Below, one piece after another: positions 21,851 to 36,784 of a stretch of DNA of 43,136 nucleotides (positions within the stretch are counted from its first letter, which is position 1; each line of letters begins with the position of its first letter). A program made the position numbers and the translations under genes. The notes below the pieces were generated by a model. That model was not told the origin of the DNA. It saw nothing but the letters and a program-made list of their open reading frames with translations, and did not search any database. Source of the stretch: Pseudomonadota bacterium (lineage in GTDB: Bacteria; Pseudomonadota; Alphaproteobacteria; UBA2136; JAPKEQ01); contig JAYZXF010000002.1 in NCBI GenBank assembly GCA_036141575.1, positions 73,536-116,671 of the forward strand, written 5' to 3'.

Positions 21851-22533
21851 CTTTCAAAGTAACAGTTGTCACACTCTTTCCTGATATGTTTCCAGGTATG
21901 CTTGGCCAGTCTATTATGGGCCGCGCAATGAAGAGTGATTTATGGGAACTGGATATTGTTGATATTCGCCAGTTTGGTACAGGTAAGCACAAAAGTGTTG
22001 ATGATACGCCATATGGTGGCGGCGCAGGCATGGTTATGCGTGCTGATGTGGTGGCAGAAGCGATTCGTAAAGCGAAAGAAGCCAACCCTACAGCTCCTGT
22101 GATTTACATGAGTGCCGCTGGTGAGAAGTTTACGGCTGCTAAAAGCCATGAGATGGCAAAACTAGATGGTGTGATTCTGCTGTGTGGCCATTATGAAGGT
22201 ATTGACCAACGTGTTCTAGATTCTCTAGTAGACTTTGAGCTTTCAATTGGGGATTATGTTCTCAGTGGTGGTGAAGTGGCTGTGCATGTTGTTGTTGATG
22301 CAGTGCTACGTCACATTCCGGGTGTATTGGGTAACCATGATACGCTGAGCGAAGAGTCATTTGAAAATGGCCTGCTTGAGTACCCGCATTACACACGTCC
22401 TGAGTCATGGGAAGGTAGGGATGTCCCAGAGGTGCTCAGAAGTGGCCACCATGCAAATATTGAGAAATGGCGCAGTGAGCAATCGCTTAAGCGCACGAAA
22501 GAACGTCGCCCTGATCTTCTAAAATCAGATTAA
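21847..22533 (+). CDS. trmD: tRNA (guanine37-N1)-methyltransferase
   Basis: A 228-residue SPOUT-class enzyme that methylates G37 of tRNAs with a G at position 36, which prevents +1 frameshifting. Typical motifs are VTLFPDMFPG, DDTPYGGGAGMVM, LLCGHYEGIDQRV and the trefoil-knot segment IGDYVLSGGE, followed by NHDTLSEESF and YPHYTRPE. It overlaps rimM by four bases. In most proteobacteria rplS follows; here a convergent gene follows at once and its stop codon overlaps that of trmD, with no terminator between them. Confidence 0.97.
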   Translation: MTFKVTVVTLFPDMFPGMLGQSIMGRAMKSDLWELDIVDIRQFGTGKHKSVDDTPYGGGAGMVMRADVVAEAIRKAKEANPTAPVIYMSAAGEKFTAAKSHEMAKLDGVILLCGHYEGIDQRVLDSLVDFELSIGDYVLSGGEVAVHVVVDAVLRHIPGVLGNHDTLSEESFENGLLEYPHYTRPESWEGRDVPEVLRSGHHANIEKWRSEQSLKRTKERRPDLLKSD

Positions 22534-22991
22534 TTCTGGCTATCACCTTTAATTTTACGCACGAGCTCAAAGTTTTTATCTAGAACGTAAGTTTCTGGGT
22601 ACTGGAAAGATTGATAATCTTCGGCCACATCGCCATGCTGATCCCACATGCTGAGAACATTGCCTTGTGCGAGCACGTCCCTGTTTTGCTTATTCAAAAA
22701 GTGCTCTAAAGCCTCTTGCTTCTTATCAAGGGAAACGAGAACCAGAGTACGTGTGTCATCACCCTTAAAATGCTCAAGCAGTTTTGGCATCTCTACCACG
22801 CAAGGTGGGCACCAGCTGGCCCAAAAATGAATCCATGTTTCTTTTTTAGGAAGGTTATAGAGAGTGAGCTCTTCTGTAATGGCAAAGTTAGGGGCAGGTG
22901 GTGTGTTCTTAGGTGCCACTTCAAGAGAACGGGCCCACATAAAGAGGCTACCAACAGCAATACATGTGATGAGGATGAGTTTAAGCTTCAT
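22530..22991 (-). CDS. Membrane-anchored thioredoxin-like protein (TlpA/ResA/CcmG type)
   Basis: A 153-residue protein with an N-terminal signal anchor (LKLILITCIAVGSLFMW) and a thioredoxin-fold domain holding the active site WASWCPPC (Cys61 and Cys64), followed by EMPKLLEHF. The later VDQ-type strand is replaced by YPETYVLDKNFELV, which contains the cis-proline region. Proteins of this type keep the CXXCH heme-binding cysteines of apocytochromes reduced in the periplasm. It is the last gene of the resB-ccsA operon; its ATG overlaps the ccsA stop by 11 bases, which supports the ResA-like role. The ATG 22991 is chosen for this reason. Confidence 0.82.
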   Translation of the reverse strand: MKLKLILITCIAVGSLFMWARSLEVAPKNTPPAPNFAITEELTLYNLPKKETWIHFWASWCPPCVVEMPKLLEHFKGDDTRTLVLVSLDKKQEALEHFLNKQNRDVLAQGNVLSMWDQHGDVAEDYQSFQYPETYVLDKNFELVRKIKGDSQN

Positions 22992-24738
22992 GAGATGTCT
23001 TTCTGTAGTAGAGGTAAGCAAGGAGGCATATTTGCACAGCAACGAAACTAATAAGCCCTACAGCGATTCCTTCGGTAAAGCCATAACTATGCAAACCAAC
23101 CCCAAGCAAGTTTACGCCAAACCATGACAGCGCCACAATAATGGTGGTTGCAGCAAAGCAAACTTGCTGTGCCTTTTTAGAAATCTGAATGCTGTATGGC
23201 AAGTGCAAGCACCATGCGAGCCAAAGCACAAGCAGGAGGGCACCATTTTCTTTCGGGTCCCACCCCCAGAAACGTCCCCAAGATTGATCGGCCCAAACAC
23301 CGCCAAGCAGAGTGCCAACAAGTGTGAAAAACACGGCCCAAACCGCAAGGGTGCGGACACGGACCAGTGTAATGTTATTTGTGAGAAGGGCGCCATGTGC
23401 AGCGAGAGCTGTAAGCAAGCTCACAGCATAACCCGTAGTGATGCAGAGCACATGCACCGTTAACCAGAATTGTGTGTTGAGCACAGCAGTAAGCAGAGGC
23501 ATTGCTGCGCTGGTTTCAGCCATGGCGCTTGCTAAAATAAACAGAAGGAAACTGCTCACAAAAGCGGTGAGTTGAACCTGTTTATTGTTCTGCCAGCCTT
23601 TATAGAGGGCAAAACCAAGGCAGACACATGCGACAAAGAGAATCGACTCAAACAGTGTGCCGACAGGTGGACGGCCTAAAATATACATGCGGGCAAGGAG
23701 TGTGAATGTGAGTAAGCTGGTCATGCCCCAAAGTGCTGTGTGTGAAAGCATGTTTAGAATTGCCCCGCATCTCAGCAAGCTTGCTGTGCTCAGAATAATA
23801 CCAAGAATGCTCAAGGCAATAAGCAAGGTTAAAGGCTTTGCTGCATGGTAGAGAGATTCAGCATGGAGCTTAGGGCTTGTGCCGCCAGCTGCAAGTTTTT
23901 GAATGCTGCTGTTGAGCTTGTTTTGATCCTCTTGTGCGTAAGCTGTAACAGCGTCAGAAAGGGTTTCAAAATACGTGCGGCGTGCGGGTGTTCCTTCAGC
24001 ATTTAAAATACTCTGCCATGGTGAAATCAGGTCACCATTTAGGTCTGGTACGATGCGAAGAGACCTTGAGCTTCGGCCTTGGCCTGCCAGAGAGTCCATG
24101 GCGAAAGAGAGGTAGGCAACTTTTTGTAGATACTGCGGATAGGTAGTAAAGTCAGTCCCATAGGCCGCGACAGCGTCTAGAGCCGTTTGTTTAATATCTG
24201 CGCGGTGGCGCAGGAGGTCTGAAAAGCTCGGAGATGTATTGATATCTCTTGGATGAAAAACTTCTGGAATATCGTTCCATGATAAGTTGGCAAAAGCAAA
24301 GAAAGGGGTAAAGCTTTCAGAAAGGTCGTAGTAGAGGTTCAGGGTTCTTTGAATGTTTTGAATCTCTGTTTTGAGGTCGCCGTCTTCTAGCTGCTCAATG
24401 CGCTCTTTTGCAGCAAGGAAATGAGTAGGAAGCTCCTTGGCGCTATAGAGATTATTTGCACGTGCTTCTAAACCTAGGAAGGATACAGCTTCAGCATTTG
24501 TAATGGAGATTGCAGGCATATTGAGAGAGCTTTCCGGAGAAAAGATGGTTTCAAAGAGCCAATCTGAAGCATGGGGAACAACAATGTTATGTTCTTCTGT
24601 TAAGAGTCCTGCAAATGTTTTGAGGTGTAAGGTGCGCCCTTCATGAACGACAGGAATATATTTCCATGCAGTTGGAACCTCTAGGCTCCATGCGCTGCTA
24701 GAAAAGAATAGGAAGCATATAAGAAGAAGGCGCATCAT
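22981..24738 (-). CDS. ccsA: Cytochrome c biogenesis protein CcsA/ResC (System II heme handling)
   Basis: A 585-residue protein. The C-terminal half has many membrane helices and the heme-binding WWD signature (SWGRFWGWDPKENGA, about residues 486-500), with flanking histidines in TVHVLCITTGYA and GVGLHSYGF. It carries heme across the inner membrane and attaches it to apocytochrome c together with ResB. The N-terminal 270 residues form an extra periplasmic domain after a signal sequence (KYIPVVHEGRTLHLKTFAG), like that of CcsBA-type proteins in other phyla. Its start overlaps the resB stop as ATGA. System II is unusual in alphaproteobacteria, which mostly use CcmABCDEFGHI. Confidence 0.88.
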   Translation of the reverse strand: MMRLLLICFLFFSSSAWSLEVPTAWKYIPVVHEGRTLHLKTFAGLLTEEHNIVVPHASDWLFETIFSPESSLNMPAISITNAEAVSFLGLEARANNLYSAKELPTHFLAAKERIEQLEDGDLKTEIQNIQRTLNLYYDLSESFTPFFAFANLSWNDIPEVFHPRDINTSPSFSDLLRHRADIKQTALDAVAAYGTDFTTYPQYLQKVAYLSFAMDSLAGQGRSSRSLRIVPDLNGDLISPWQSILNAEGTPARRTYFETLSDAVTAYAQEDQNKLNSSIQKLAAGGTSPKLHAESLYHAAKPLTLLIALSILGIILSTASLLRCGAILNMLSHTALWGMTSLLTFTLLARMYILGRPPVGTLFESILFVACVCLGFALYKGWQNNKQVQLTAFVSSFLLFILASAMAETSAAMPLLTAVLNTQFWLTVHVLCITTGYAVSLLTALAAHGALLTNNITLVRVRTLAVWAVFFTLVGTLLGGVWADQSWGRFWGWDPKENGALLLVLWLAWCLHLPYSIQISKKAQQVCFAATTIIVALSWFGVNLLGVGLHSYGFTEGIAVGLISFVAVQICLLAYLYYRKTSHEA

Positions 24739-25790
24739 TTACGACGTCTCCCTTTTTGGAGGGCATGTGCAAGCAGACCAAAAGCGATGAGACCTGTCGC
24801 AACATATGGGGCTTCTTTAAGTGGGTTATGCACCACTGCAAGGACTGAAACAGGGGTATCTGAACTGCTGTTAATCACTGAAGATTGGTAGAGCGTGTAA
24901 TCGCCAACAGAAAGAGGACTGTTCATTTCAATTGCAGTGCGTTTGTCGCCATCATGATTCATAACAGTAACATCAGACATGTATGCTTTGGCCATGTCTG
25001 TGCCGCTGTAATTTGTCTTTTTAAACTGATTGAGTGTGACACTAAATGGCAAGTTGGTTTGCGTTTTGTTAAGTGTAAAGAAGGCTGTTTCTGTGCTGGC
25101 AGGAATTGGCGCTGCATCAATGAGTGTGAAGCCAGATGCTGCTCCATTTTCAGAAACAATAAAGCTGAGGCCTGATAGGTTTTCTTCTGCTTTGAGCTCT
25201 AACGTTTTTGGAGAAAGCTGCATGTTAGCGCCCATGCCAAGGAAGGGAACAGGCCCCTCTTTACGGGCTGAGATTTTACAGTTTTTGCAGTGTTCAACAA
25301 TCTGAACTTCAAAGGGCCAGTTTGTATCTTGTAGGCGTGTCGCCTCTGTTAGAGTGTCATGGTTAAATGTCCATGTTTCTCCGTTATGTTCAACAATGAA
25401 TTCCTTTTCAAAATAGCTGGTGAGGGTATCGACAGTTTCACCAACTTTAAAAGATATATAACCTTCTGTACTCCACACAGGTGTGAAGATCATGCTGAGA
25501 ACAAGACCAATAACACCCACATGCATAAACATCAGACCATATGTTTTTTTCTGCCAGTTTTGTGTGATGCTAAAAAGGGTTAAATTGAGAAGAAGGAGAA
25601 CAGCAAGGGTGAGAAAACCTGGAAGAGGAATGCCATGCATCCAGAGTGTCCAGCTGTAGAAATAGTTTTCTGTGGCTTCATGTAGCCCCATGTATTTTTG
25701 AGCCAGCGTACCAAGGACTAAATACACCATAAAGCATGGTGCAAGAATAGTGAAAAACTTGGCGCTTTTTAGGAATGCAAAAACCTTCAT
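24735..25790 (-). CDS. resB: Cytochrome c biogenesis protein ResB/CcsB
   Basis: A 351-residue protein with three N-terminal membrane segments (about 10-30, 55-75, 85-105), a large periplasmic domain and a final membrane segment (about 325-343), the ResB topology. Family marks are LVLGTLAQ, HVGVIGLVLSM, and the ending SVLAVVHNPLKEAPYVATGL. The periplasmic part has a Cys pair in EHCKNCKIS. It forms the System II synthase with CcsA. The -10-like TACATT ends six bases before the ATG and no ribosome-binding site is visible, so the transcript is predicted to be leaderless. An FNR box lies about 41 bases upstream. Confidence 0.85.
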   Translation of the reverse strand: MKVFAFLKSAKFFTILAPCFMVYLVLGTLAQKYMGLHEATENYFYSWTLWMHGIPLPGFLTLAVLLLLNLTLFSITQNWQKKTYGLMFMHVGVIGLVLSMIFTPVWSTEGYISFKVGETVDTLTSYFEKEFIVEHNGETWTFNHDTLTEATRLQDTNWPFEVQIVEHCKNCKISARKEGPVPFLGMGANMQLSPKTLELKAEENLSGLSFIVSENGAASGFTLIDAAPIPASTETAFFTLNKTQTNLPFSVTLNQFKKTNYSGTDMAKAYMSDVTVMNHDGDKRTAIEMNSPLSVGDYTLYQSSVINSSSDTPVSVLAVVHNPLKEAPYVATGLIAFGLLAHALQKGRRRK

Positions 25791-25823
25791 GATGCTAATG
25801 TAACAATATTTTTTTCCTTTGGC

Positions 25824-25837
25824 TTGATGAAAATCAA
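25824..25837. promoter_or_regulatory. FNR-type box between resB and the 118-residue gene
   Basis: TTGAT, GAAA, ATCAA is a perfect match to the FNR/Anr consensus. Its centre is 40.5 bases from the resB ATG on one side and 42.5 bases from the ATG of the small gene on the other. One activator dimer could therefore serve both divergent promoters in the class II position. Confidence 0.85.
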
Positions 25838-25872
25838 GTCATGCCTCTAAGGGGCTGGTTAGTATAGTTTGC

Positions 25873-26229
25873 ATGGCTTATGACTCAACCGTATATGAAC
25901 TCTTAAAAACCTACGCTTCTGTAGGGACGGTTTCTCTTGAAAAGCACCGGCATGAATTTCCGTACCAGCAAATTTTTGATGCAGTAGAAGCAAGAAATCC
26001 TAAGCGTTGCGCACGTATTTGGCTGAAGGGAGAAGAAGCGGTGTCACCGTGGTGTGTTTGCTATAAAGAAGGTGTGCTTGATATTTGCGAGATGGCCTTT
26101 AGGAAAAGTGAAGCCATCTGGAATGTGGAAAAGAGTCATTTGGAAAATATTCAAAACAACCCAGAAAAATTTCAAGAAAATTTAACGCTGCTTGATATGA
26201 GCTGGCTCACAGGCTCTCAGGCGTATTAG
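25873..26229 (+). CDS. Unknown 118-residue protein, probably FNR-controlled
   Basis: I do not recognise this protein. It has no signal peptide or membrane segment. It contains four cysteines (46, 61, 63, 72), three of them in WCVCYKEGVLDIC, and two close histidines (25, 27), so metal or cofactor binding is possible. The ATG has no ribosome-binding site; TATAGT ends four bases before it, which suggests a leaderless message. It shares the FNR box with resB and ends against the regulator gene, with stop codons overlapping as TTAG. Its place inside the respiratory cluster suggests a role in low-oxygen metabolism, but that is inference. Confidence 0.75.
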   Translation: MAYDSTVYELLKTYASVGTVSLEKHRHEFPYQQIFDAVEARNPKRCARIWLKGEEAVSPWCVCYKEGVLDICEMAFRKSEAIWNVEKSHLENIQNNPEKFQENLTLLDMSWLTGSQAY

Positions 26230-26951
26230 TCTCCGCAAGGGAAGATGGTTGAACACGCGCTGCAGCAGAATTCTGCAAGTTTATCTACATTGGTGATGGT
26301 AATATGGCTCCCTTTCACTTCAAGGTCAGCTTCTTTTTTGAGTTTTCCAAGTGCGCGTGAAAATGTTTCTGGCTGCATGCCAAGGCGAGAAGAGACAAGC
26401 GTCTTATCGTAAGGCAGGTTAATGTCCTGTGGGTCTTTGCTATCTGGGTGAGGCAATAGTTTTAGCAGGAAGCAACCAATGCGCTGTGGCGCATTTTGTA
26501 ATGTGCGGTGCTCGAGCTCCATGTCTTGTTGAGTGCGGTATTTTGACATGGTTTTAAGCATCGCCATGGCCATTTTAGGGTTGTCCTCAATTTCATCTTT
26601 AAGGAGCTGTAGAGGAAGCTTAATGAGCTGAGCGGTTTCAACAGCCTCTGCGCTATAAGGGTAAGCCATGTTTTCAAACAAAGCATTTTCACCAAAGGTA
26701 TGCCCTGCTGTGAGAACATCAATAACAGCTTGGTTGCCATCAATAGATTCACGGAACAGTTTAACCCAGCCATGTAGCACAATATAAAAGCTTTCAGCTT
26801 TATCTTCACGTAGGAAGAACATGTGGTTTTTATGGACTTGGATGGTTTGGGCTTGCTTGTAGAGCTTTTTTAGAAAATCAGGACTACCATGCTTTGTAAG
26901 CATGTTGGTTTCGATACTGTGTTCGATGGCGTGTCCTGCCAATGTTGTCAC
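26226..26951 (-). CDS. CRP/FNR-family transcription regulator with C-terminal cysteine cluster
   Basis: A 241-residue protein. The cyclic-nucleotide-binding fold covers about residues 25-145 (GWVKLFRESIDG, AGHTFGENALF), then a dimer helix and a winged helix-turn-helix. The recognition helix QPETFSRAL has Glu195, Ser198 and Arg199, the E-xx-SR pattern of FNR proteins that read TTGAY-N4-RTCAA. The N-terminal cysteines that bind the FNR iron-sulfur cluster are missing. Instead, Cys229, Cys230, Cys233 and Cys239 lie in the last 13 residues, a possible metal or cluster site. It starts with GTG after AAAGGG. It is divergent from the cbb3 operon and shares a spacer with an FNR box. Confidence 0.85.
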   Translation of the reverse strand: MTTLAGHAIEHSIETNMLTKHGSPDFLKKLYKQAQTIQVHKNHMFFLREDKAESFYIVLHGWVKLFRESIDGNQAVIDVLTAGHTFGENALFENMAYPYSAEAVETAQLIKLPLQLLKDEIEDNPKMAMAMLKTMSKYRTQQDMELEHRTLQNAPQRIGCFLLKLLPHPDSKDPQDINLPYDKTLVSSRLGMQPETFSRALGKLKKEADLEVKGSHITITNVDKLAEFCCSACSTIFPCGD

Positions 26952-26997: not shown

Positions 26998-27011
26998 TTG
27001 ACAAAAGTCAA
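26998..27011. promoter_or_regulatory. FNR-type box upstream of the cbb3 operon
   Basis: TTGAC, AAAA, GTCAA is a perfect palindrome of the FNR/Dnr type. CATAAT at 27035-27040 is the matching -10, which puts the transcript start near 27046 and the box centre near -41.5, the class II position. The regulator gene on the other strand may also be affected by this box. Confidence 0.85.
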
Positions 27012-27063
27012 AGAGAGGAAAACGTCTTCGCGCGCATAATGCGTGCGTGAAAGGACAAAGGAC

Positions 27064-27798
27064 GTGACCCTTTTAGAAACAGTACTGACACAAATTATGG
27101 GATGTTTTCATAACATTCCCCTCTCTTATGGCCTGATTTCTGGGCTTTTTGTCATTGGTCTTGCAGGGAGCATTGGGCACTGCACGCTGATGTGTGGGCC
27201 GTTTGTGATGTCACAAGCTGGCAAATTTGAAAAAGCGTCAGGCGCACTTCTTATTCCATACCACTTGGGTCGTGTAACCACATACATGTTTATTGCGGCT
27301 GTGTTTTACGGTGTGGTGAGTATGGCCTCTGTGCTTGTGCCGCTAAAAGTGTTTATCGTGGCGCCACTTCTCATGATGTCGGGTCTACTCTTTTTGCTTT
27401 CAGCCTTTCCAAAACTTATGGTGGCTTTCCCTTGGGCAGCCTTTTTAAGCCGAGGTGTGCAGGCTGTTATGCCACAAGGCTTTGCGCAATCTATGGGTGA
27501 AAAACCAAACATGCTTAAGCTTTACATTTACGGTGTTATGCTTGGGTTTATTCCTTGCGGAATGGTATTTGCGGCGGTTATGGCTGCTGCAACAACAGAT
27601 AGTTTTACACATAGCATGCTTGCTATGTTTGCATTTGGGATGGGCACAATGCCAGCCCTTATGCTTGTTGCGCTCGGTGCTGGTAAGGTGAGCAAACTCT
27701 CACCAAAAGCAGCCCGCGTAATGAAACAAACTGCTTATACATGGACAGGCCTCTGGCTGATCCTGATGAGCGGTAAGATGATCCTAAGCTTTGCTTAG
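27064..27798 (+). CDS. TauE/SafE or DsbD_2-like membrane protein of the cbb3 cluster
   Basis: A 244-residue protein with about six membrane segments. The motif [12 protein letters not shown] at the first helices and [10 protein letters not shown] in the second half are typical of the DsbD_2 (UreH-like) domain found beside ccoNOQP and ccoGHIS in many proteobacteria. Such proteins are thought to take part in copper or thiol-redox supply for oxidase assembly; the function is not settled. GTG 27064 is chosen because AAGGA lies eight bases before it and because the earlier GTG at 27043 precedes the predicted transcript start. It is the first gene of the FNR-controlled cbb3 operon, 23 bases before ccoN. 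Confidence 0.78.
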
Positions 27799-35404: not shown

Positions 35405-36736
35405 TTAAATAGCTTTCGAGTGTTTCTCTTCTGGTGATGGCGCTAGATACGCATCAAATGCGCTGGCCACAACACGGGCCCATAAGTAACCATCTTTTAG
35501 AATACAGAGCGTACGTGTCATGCTATCCCATTCCAGAATATCGCCACCAAGCTTATTCATAATGGCTTCTTTTTCTGCTTCATAAGCTTCAGGAATGTAA
35601 GACTCAAAATTGCACATAAGCGCTTCAATGATATCGCTACGGGCATGGTCGTCTGCACCTGTTGGACAGTACTTCACAGCAGTAGGTTCAACAGAGCCAA
35701 CAGTGTTTTTATAGAGGCCTATGTTGGGTTGGTTTTGCATGAAGCCCTGTGGGTATTTTGAAATCGATGAAGCGCCAAATCCAATGAGAGTATCAGCCAC
35801 GTCTGTGGTGTAGCCTTGGAAGTTTCGTTTAAGTGTACCGGCGTTGAGAGCCTTAACCATTTCATCTTCAGGTTTTGCGTAGTGGTCAATCCCGACAGCG
35901 GTGTAGCCACGCTCCATGAGTGTGTCACGACCTGTGTTCATTAGGATCATGCGGGCTTCTGTATCAGGGAGTGATTCTTCTGGAATCAGGCGCATATGTT
36001 TTTTCATCCAAGGCACATGAGCATACCCAAAGAAGGCAATGCGGCTTGGGCTTAAATCCGCCAGCGTGTTCATGGTGTCTTGAATGGTTTTTGCTGTTTG
36101 ATGTGGGAAGCCATACATCACATCAAAGTTAATATCGGTGATGCCATGCGCTCTCAGCATGCGGCAGGCATCTTGTGTTTTTTGCAATGTTTGCGGACGA
36201 CCAACAGCTTCCATAATGTGGTCATGGATGTCTTGCACACCGAGGCTTGCACGATTAACGCCTTTTTCTGCGTAAGATTTAATCTTCTCTTCCGTTAAGG
36301 TGCGAGGGTCCATTTCAATGGCAATCTCAGCATTGTCGAGGAAGGTGAAAGCGGCTTTGAGCGCATCCATGATGCGCTCAAACTCGGTTGGCTCTAGTAG
36401 GGTTGGAGACCCTCCACCAAAATGAATATGGCTCACAGTGCGCTTCGTGTTTAGGCGCAGTGCCGTTTGTTCAATTTCTGAAATAAGAGCAGAGACATAA
36501 CCTTCAATAGGTTCATACTTCTTTGTGATTTTTGTGTGGCAACCACAGTACCAGCACATCTCTGCACAGAATGGAATATGGAGATAAAGAGAAATAGGCT
36601 GTGTGTCATCCAGCTTGCTTTGCCATGTTTCAAGGAGGCCTTGCTTATCGATGGCTTTAAAGTGCGGCGCCGTAGGGTAACTCGTGTAACGAGGCAACCT
36701 TTGTGTGAGTAAATCTAATGTCTCTTTTGTCATCAT
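35405..36736 (-). CDS. hemN: Oxygen-independent coproporphyrinogen III oxidase
   Basis: A 443-residue radical SAM enzyme that converts coproporphyrinogen III to protoporphyrinogen IX without oxygen. The cluster motif is CAEMCWYCGC (Cys57, Cys61, Cys64, with Cys66 next to it). Other marks are RYTSYPTAPHF at the N-terminus, HFGGGSPTLL, EMDPRT and GVQDIHDHI. The length and the N-terminus fit true HemN rather than HemW. It supplies heme for cbb3 oxidase at low oxygen. An FNR box lies 41.5 bases upstream of the ATG and TATATT ends six bases before it, so the message is predicted to be leaderless. Confidence 0.94.
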   Translation of the reverse strand: MMTKETLDLLTQRLPRYTSYPTAPHFKAIDKQGLLETWQSKLDDTQPISLYLHIPFCAEMCWYCGCHTKITKKYEPIEGYVSALISEIEQTALRLNTKRTVSHIHFGGGSPTLLEPTEFERIMDALKAAFTFLDNAEIAIEMDPRTLTEEKIKSYAEKGVNRASLGVQDIHDHIMEAVGRPQTLQKTQDACRMLRAHGITDINFDVMYGFPHQTAKTIQDTMNTLADLSPSRIAFFGYAHVPWMKKHMRLIPEESLPDTEARMILMNTGRDTLMERGYTAVGIDHYAKPEDEMVKALNAGTLKRNFQGYTTDVADTLIGFGASSISKYPQGFMQNQPNIGLYKNTVGSVEPTAVKYCPTGADDHARSDIIEALMCNFESYIPEAYEAEKEAIMNKLGGDILEWDSMTRTLCILKDGYLWARVVASAFDAYLAPSPEEKHSKAI

Positions 36737-36742
36737 AAGGGC

Positions 36743-36748
36743 AATATA
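36743..36748 (-). promoter_or_regulatory. -10 element of hemN
   Basis: TATATT on the minus strand, then six bases, then ATG. With normal spacing the transcript begins at the A of the start codon. Confidence 0.6.
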
Positions 36749-36770: not shown

Positions 36771-36784
36771 TTGACAGATATCAA
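36771..36784. promoter_or_regulatory. FNR-type box upstream of hemN
   Basis: TTGAC, AGAT, ATCAA matches TTGAY-N4-RTCAA. It is centred exactly 41.5 bases upstream of the hemN ATG, the class II activating position if the message is leaderless. Confidence 0.85.

Follow-up and report, generated by a model that had tools for sequence, protein, structure and literature searches.

Can a single activator site set the start of both genes that diverge from it? The question is raised by a 43,136-nucleotide stretch of an alphaproteobacterial genome, analyzed here as a whole (the window), in which the initial annotation had placed an FNR box centred at 25830.5 between resB and a small gene, 40.5 and 42.5 nt, respectively, from their ATGs. 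Re-reading of the coordinates confirmed both distances, the start codons being at 25790 on the minus strand and at 25873 on the plus strand. The elements concerned are as follows.

25824..25837, no strand assigned: FNR-type palindrome TTGATGAAAATCAA, centre 25830.5, common to both promoters.
25797..25802, minus strand: predicted -10 element of resB, TACATT, with its first base 28.5 nt from the box centre and 6 nt before the ATG.
24735..25790, minus strand: resB (cytochrome c biogenesis system II; Pfam ResB, PF05140), predicted leaderless.
22981..24738, minus strand: ccsA-like cytochrome c assembly gene (Pfam PF01578), overlapping resB.
22530..23042, minus strand: thioredoxin-like (resA-type) gene (Pfam AhpC-TSA/Redoxin), downstream.
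25860..25868, plus strand: predicted -10 element of the small gene, read from the sequence as TAGTAT (25860-25865) or TATAGT (25863-25868).
25873..26229, plus strand: small gene of 118 aa, coding by its codon score and representing a new protein family, predicted leaderless.
26226..26951, minus strand: Crp/Fnr-family regulator gene (PF13545 and PF00027), the presumed reader of the box.

The box has zero mismatches to the palindrome TTGAT-N4-ATCAA, which makes it an FNR/FixK-type site. The 1.85-Mb genome (G000) holds four copies of the perfect TTGATNNNNATCAA, three of which lie within coding sequence, leaving the copy at 25824-25837 as the sole perfect FNR-type palindrome outside genes; the other perfect boxes were rejected as targets because of their position inside coding sequence. 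There are ten matches to TTGAYNNNNRTCAA, and those found ahead of plausible low-oxygen genes (25824, 26998, and 36771) are all in the window. Elsewhere in the genome, a box-like TTGATTCGTGTCAA is located between two genes, one of which resembles a phage lysozyme or endolysin (L084:11597-11610; G000:C17:71597); it probably occurs there by chance. No upstream alternative start (ATG, GTG, or TTG) is present in the frame of resB or of the small gene.

Among E. coli FNR-activated promoters with known starts, 19 of 23 have their site at -41.5 ± 4 (PMC3688515). When this rule is applied to the box, the transcription starts are predicted at or beside both ATGs because of the distances of the two start codons from its centre. 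From these sequence features, we consider it likely that a single operator is used in class II fashion in both directions and that both predicted mRNAs are leaderless, beginning at or within one base of the ATG. The initial annotation had proposed that one activator dimer occupies the class II position for both genes, and the comparative tests described below support that proposal.

From this geometry we infer binding, activation, transcript starts, and leaderless translation as follows. At low oxygen, the Crp/Fnr-type regulator encoded beside the box would bind it as a dimer and recruit RNA polymerase to a -10 element about 29 nt from the centre on either side. Both transcripts would then begin no more than one base from their ATG and lack a leader. 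On one side, this would express the apparent resB-ccsA-thioredoxin-like operon, of which resB is the first gene, for cytochrome c maturation needed by the adjacent cbb3 oxidase. On the other side, it would yield the 118-aa protein, the gene of which is read toward the regulator gene and meets it at its 3′ end. The two promoters would probably compete, as each polymerase would place its alpha-CTD over the promoter region of the other, and the site would thus divide activation between two genes. Small-gene transcription that reaches the regulator gene at its 3′ end might also provide feedback, through the protein or through antisense transcription. The predicted output, i.e., cytochrome c maturation for the cbb3 oxidase, low-oxygen heme synthesis, and the small protein, fits the physiology.

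Part of this arrangement has precedents. Divergent promoters activated by CRP from one site, in leadered constructs or genes, have reportedly been described by the Busby laboratory, and the box in the window likewise combines one activator site with two divergent promoters. It also resembles E. coli class II FNR and CRP promoters, in which TTGATNNNNATCAA is found near -41.5 with a -10 element and a single site is typical (PMC3688515). Those promoters are normally leadered, however, whereas here the position of the activator would by itself dictate a start at the ATG, and the site faces two ways.

As the initial annotation had noted, -10-like hexamers precede both ATGs. In the small gene, TAGTAT starts 29.5 nt from the box centre, the canonical distance, and ends 7 nt before the ATG, and TATAGT ends 4 nt before it, so that its -10 element is ambiguous. 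Distances from the -10 element to the box centre are thus 28.5 nt for resB, in this genome and in the sister species, 29.5 nt for hemN, and 29.5 or 32.5 nt for the small gene, close to the ~29.5 nt of class II promoters, with hexamers that match at 4 to 5 of 6 bases. These matches are weak (4/6 for resB, 3 to 4/6 in several relatives) and little above background. The same annotation had reported that neither gene has a ribosome-binding site. This held for resB, with an anti-Shine-Dalgarno (SD) pairing of +1.0 kcal/mol, i.e., none, as for hemN (+0.6 kcal/mol). For the small gene, the sole candidate is an AAGGGG that ends 18 nt upstream of the ATG and accounts for a score of -6.2 kcal/mol; that motif lies outside the SD range. 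All these genes start with ATG and have no SD sequence in range, as leaderless genes do, and each element in the initial annotation was thus confirmed. Across genomes, anti-SD pairing is mostly absent from the leaderless-type arms, most of which score between -1.2 and +1.0 kcal/mol, in comparison with -4.2 to -6.4 kcal/mol for the leadered arms OFTM11 hemN, M2405 small, and G113 small; the membrane-protein arm of G391 scores -4.6 kcal/mol despite its leaderless-type spacing. Leaderless candidates make up 4 of the 35 unambiguous starts of the genome that have no SD, too few for a genome-wide rate.

Leaderless mRNAs are common in Alphaproteobacteria, with 375 in Caulobacter, or 9.6% of coding sequences (PMC4117421), and 171 in S. 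meliloti (PMC3616915), which makes it credible that such mRNAs are translated here. The mRNAs predicted in the window would share with them an AUG at the 5′ end and the lack of an SD. The main texts of those two reports do not mention FixK, whereas here the predicted leaderless starts are tied to the spacing of one regulator.

Conservation of the resB arm was analyzed in G001 (MAG ANT-120), the sole other genome of the genus, which we used as a sister species. Its ResB is 71% identical to that of the window. All 14 letters of the box are identical, including the four middle bases, and the distance of 40.5 nt is kept: the box-to-ATG length of 33 nt is the same, with 23 of 33 spacer bases matching, and the predicted -10 element TAAAGT is at the same place as TACATT in the window. 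The start of resB is also conserved in L022. Other members of the order were rejected as support for the site, as their resB genes have no such box.

Two further FNR-type boxes of the window allow a comparison with this layout.

36771..36784, no strand assigned: third FNR-type box (TTGATATCTGTCAA on the minus strand), upstream of hemN.
36743..36748, minus strand: predicted -10 element of hemN, TATATT, 29.5 nt from the box centre and 6 nt before the ATG.
35405..36736, minus strand: hemN (oxygen-independent coproporphyrinogen III oxidase; NCBIfam TIGR00538), predicted leaderless.
26998..27011, no strand assigned: second FNR-type box TTGACAAAAGTCAA, between the regulator gene and the DsbD_2-like and cbb3 oxidase genes.

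Between the box centre and the hemN ATG there are 41.5 nt in the window, compared with 42.5 nt in G001. On the cbb3 side, the predicted -10 element CATAAT (27035-27040) is 30.5 nt from the centre, and the GTG start at 27064 is preceded by the SD AAAGGA in a normal short leader of 17 nt; the distance from box to start is 59.5 nt in both species. One presumed regulator therefore has both leaderless-type and leadered targets, each kind conserved. The cbb3-side promoter (26998-27064) provides a built-in contrast to the leaderless-type targets.

The spacing of hemN was then surveyed in 79 other alphaproteobacterial contigs, with boxes sought up to 250 nt upstream. The hemN query alignment contained three proteins first found by the promoter pattern (L113-L115); the scan itself used protein motifs only. 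Thirty-nine of the 79 loci have a box within 250 nt. In 17 of these 39, the box centre is 40.5 to 43.5 nt from an in-frame ATG, with a peak of eight at 41.5 nt; none is at 32 to 40 nt, and most of the remainder are spread from 46 nt outward. The 17 genes come from Paracoccus, Aliiroseovarius, Maritimibacter, Chelatococcus, Cohaesibacter, Kordiimonas, and several Rhodospirillales, among others. Cultured species with this hemN spacing include Paracoccus rhizosphaerae (L205), Chelatococcus albus (L193), and an Aliiroseovarius (L234).

This distribution bears on whether the transcripts might carry ordinary leaders, with starts farther upstream, SD-independent translation, and ATG distances that merely reflect compact intergenic regions. 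The normal SD leader that the same regulator's cbb3-side promoter has in both species would agree with such an explanation. However, a class II activator at this box would lose contact if the start lay far from ~41 nt off its centre (position rule in PMC3688515), and nothing else evidently accounts for the peak at 41.5 nt among hemN genes, which makes ordinary leaders improbable.

For the leaderless spacing at large, we searched 386 genomes of the class with a DNA pattern consisting of the box, TAnnnT, and an ATG, which gave 146 matches versus 96 for a control with the ATG shifted 8 nt further, a modest, 1.5-fold excess in which matches within a genus are not independent. This control replaced a backward-read one, dropped as unfair since reading backward destroys the box. 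The quality of the open reading frames at 30 loci was uninformative as a statistic, with five good cases for the pattern and four for the shifted control, but it brought hemN to light.

What reads the box? G000 and G001 each encode only one HTH_Crp_2 protein, which in G000 is the regulator beside the box. Its recognition helix, PETFSR, contains the E-x-x-S-R pattern of FNR-type readers. Its N-terminal region contains no cysteines, unlike canonical FNR and FnrN proteins with their N-terminal cluster and internal cysteine, and thus the name FNR is apt for the box but would be premature for the protein. The regulator scores far below the NCBIfam cut-off for Fnr, and its closest matches in the PDB are the Crp/Fnr-family protein 3fx3 and DNR. 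Its C-terminus, CCSACSTIFPC, has a Cx2-Cx5-C spacing conserved in relatives. In E. coli FNR, this spacing is found at the N-terminus. C-terminal Cx2-Cx5-C ends are also present in the Crp/Fnr regulators of L241, L245, L251, L260, L274, L275, L164, and L178, with motifs of relatives such as CNFCSISEEC, CGHCSVTHDC, and CAACSSEFPC, as if the FNR cluster motif had been moved to the opposite end of the protein. Bacillus Fnr holds the cysteines of its [4Fe-4S] cluster at the C-terminus, in a Cx2-Cx4-C spacing that differs from that of the regulator and with an Asp as the fourth ligand (PMC3520743). From these motifs, the regulator may plausibly sense oxygen; as it has no N-terminal FNR cysteines, it may instead be a nitric-oxide or redox sensor.

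With a regulator devoid of the N-terminal cysteine cluster, the box might conceivably be a repressor or dual site at which the bound protein blocks one or both genes. We regard this as very improbable: the position of the box is an activating one on both sides, and in other Alphaproteobacteria the targets of FNR/FixK include hemN, cco, and heme-lyase operons (PMC4999443). The FnrN/FixK regulon that includes these targets uses the same box, but the word "leader" does not appear in its description (PMC4999443), and the regulator of the window is not FnrN and not evidently FixK.

The small gene is coding: it has relatives, and its codon score of 0.195 exceeds the 99th percentile of spurious open reading frames (0.152). 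No family in Pfam, NCBIfam, or PHROG matches the protein. The first searches were empty, but the gene was rejected as a species-specific orphan after a search across the class detected a relative in G241, from a different family of organisms (E = 2.6e-5 class-wide; 1e-9 in pairwise BLASTP), and a neighbourhood scan found four more, in G391, L164, L178, and G113. The relatives' loci are L274:5558-5923, L275:6373-6750, L164, L178, and L279 (G113). The family, of ~120 aa, has the motifs RFPF/Y and NPxxYxxNPAxlxWxWM. A single-sequence structure model was unusable (pLDDT 52); a three-sequence model is fairly confident (pLDDT 81.8). With that model, a PDB search gave no significant match, the best being UbiJ-SCP2 (E = 0.09, TM 0.37), and we therefore claim no function.

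For the small-gene arm, no close relative has promoter DNA fit for alignment. An FNR-type box is upstream of the gene in all six members, i.e., the window and five of five relatives. In three of the five relatives (G241, G391, and L178), 41.5 nt separate the ATG from the box centre; in L164 and L279, the small gene starts farther out, at 68.5 and 62.5 nt, respectively, and is preceded by an SD, and thus the spacing is not universal in the family. These observations argue against the box serving only resB, as a class II, leaderless promoter, with the small gene using its own promoter or read-through and the 42.5 nt being coincidental. By our estimate (4 positions in ~150 nt), such spacing would arise by chance in ~3% of cases, and TAnnnT occurs 5 to 8 nt before only 4 of the 87 unambiguous starts of the genome. 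A resB-only site is compatible with the ambiguous -10 element of the small gene and with the sister species, which lacks the small gene and retains the box 40.5 nt ahead of resB; it appears unlikely, although slightly less so than ordinary leaders.

In five of the six family members, the small gene converges on an fnr-like gene that encodes a C-terminal Cx2-Cx5-C; in G113, the product of the convergent fnr-like gene lacks that motif. In the window, G241, and L178, the two genes share 4 nt at their stop codons. Different genes lie across the box, namely resB in the window, hemN in L164 and L178, and the gene of a small membrane protein in G241 and G391, and therefore the synteny-conserved unit consists of the regulator, the small gene, and the box. 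The small membrane protein, with a FWAWIAYQTVKGTLTT motif and no Pfam match, is a leaderless-type partner at L274:6005-6163 (plus strand) and L275:6834-6977 (plus strand).

Class II FNR control and leaderless mRNA are each already known. Their conserved coupling at one site that faces both ways seems to be undescribed: our searches for leaderless FNR promoters and leaderless hemN yielded nothing relevant in a literature that included few subscription journals, and coverage is incomplete to that extent. If the reading of two leaderless class II promoters is true, the position of the activator does two jobs, the timing of the gene and the choice of leaderless translation; oxygen sensing would be coupled to the mode of translation in defined genes, for hemN and cytochrome maturation, across a bacterial class, and leaderless genes would be predictable from the binding site alone. 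One site with two class II promoters would also offer a clean natural test of promoter competition. In addition, the analysis brought out a protein family outside Pfam, NCBIfam, and PHROGs that is tied to a putative oxygen regulator.

The geometry itself recurs with other gene pairs. Both arms are of the leaderless type across one box in G241 (40.5 and 41.5 nt) and G391 (42.5 and 41.5 nt). The double leaderless-type geometry is also found for hemN/DUF1989 pairs in L114 and L115, for a hemN/xylose-isomerase-like pair across one box in L224 (which also has an alternative ATG at 49.5 nt), and for hemerythrin-like and DsbD_2-like genes at L117:693-2102, where the ATGs are 40.5 and 41.5 nt from the centre of one FNR-type box. 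In the hemN/DUF1989 pair of L113, which likewise shares one box, the DUF1989 ATG is at 37.5 nt. G254 and G043 were rejected as further symmetric pairs, as their box is within a reading frame and occurs by chance. The presence of double geometry in unrelated gene pairs shows that symmetric placement is a recurring layout. More tentatively, the Crp/Fnr site with two leaderless promoters might be a recurrent alphaproteobacterial module in which the position of the activator alone sets both starts, and which here would drive a small protein convergently locked to, and feeding back on, a regulator with a C-terminal Fe-S motif; we hold this extended version to be possible rather than probable.

Two fnr-like genes have their own ATG 40.5 nt from a box (L274:4804-4851 and L281:6378-6412), an arrangement suggestive of leaderless-type autoregulation.
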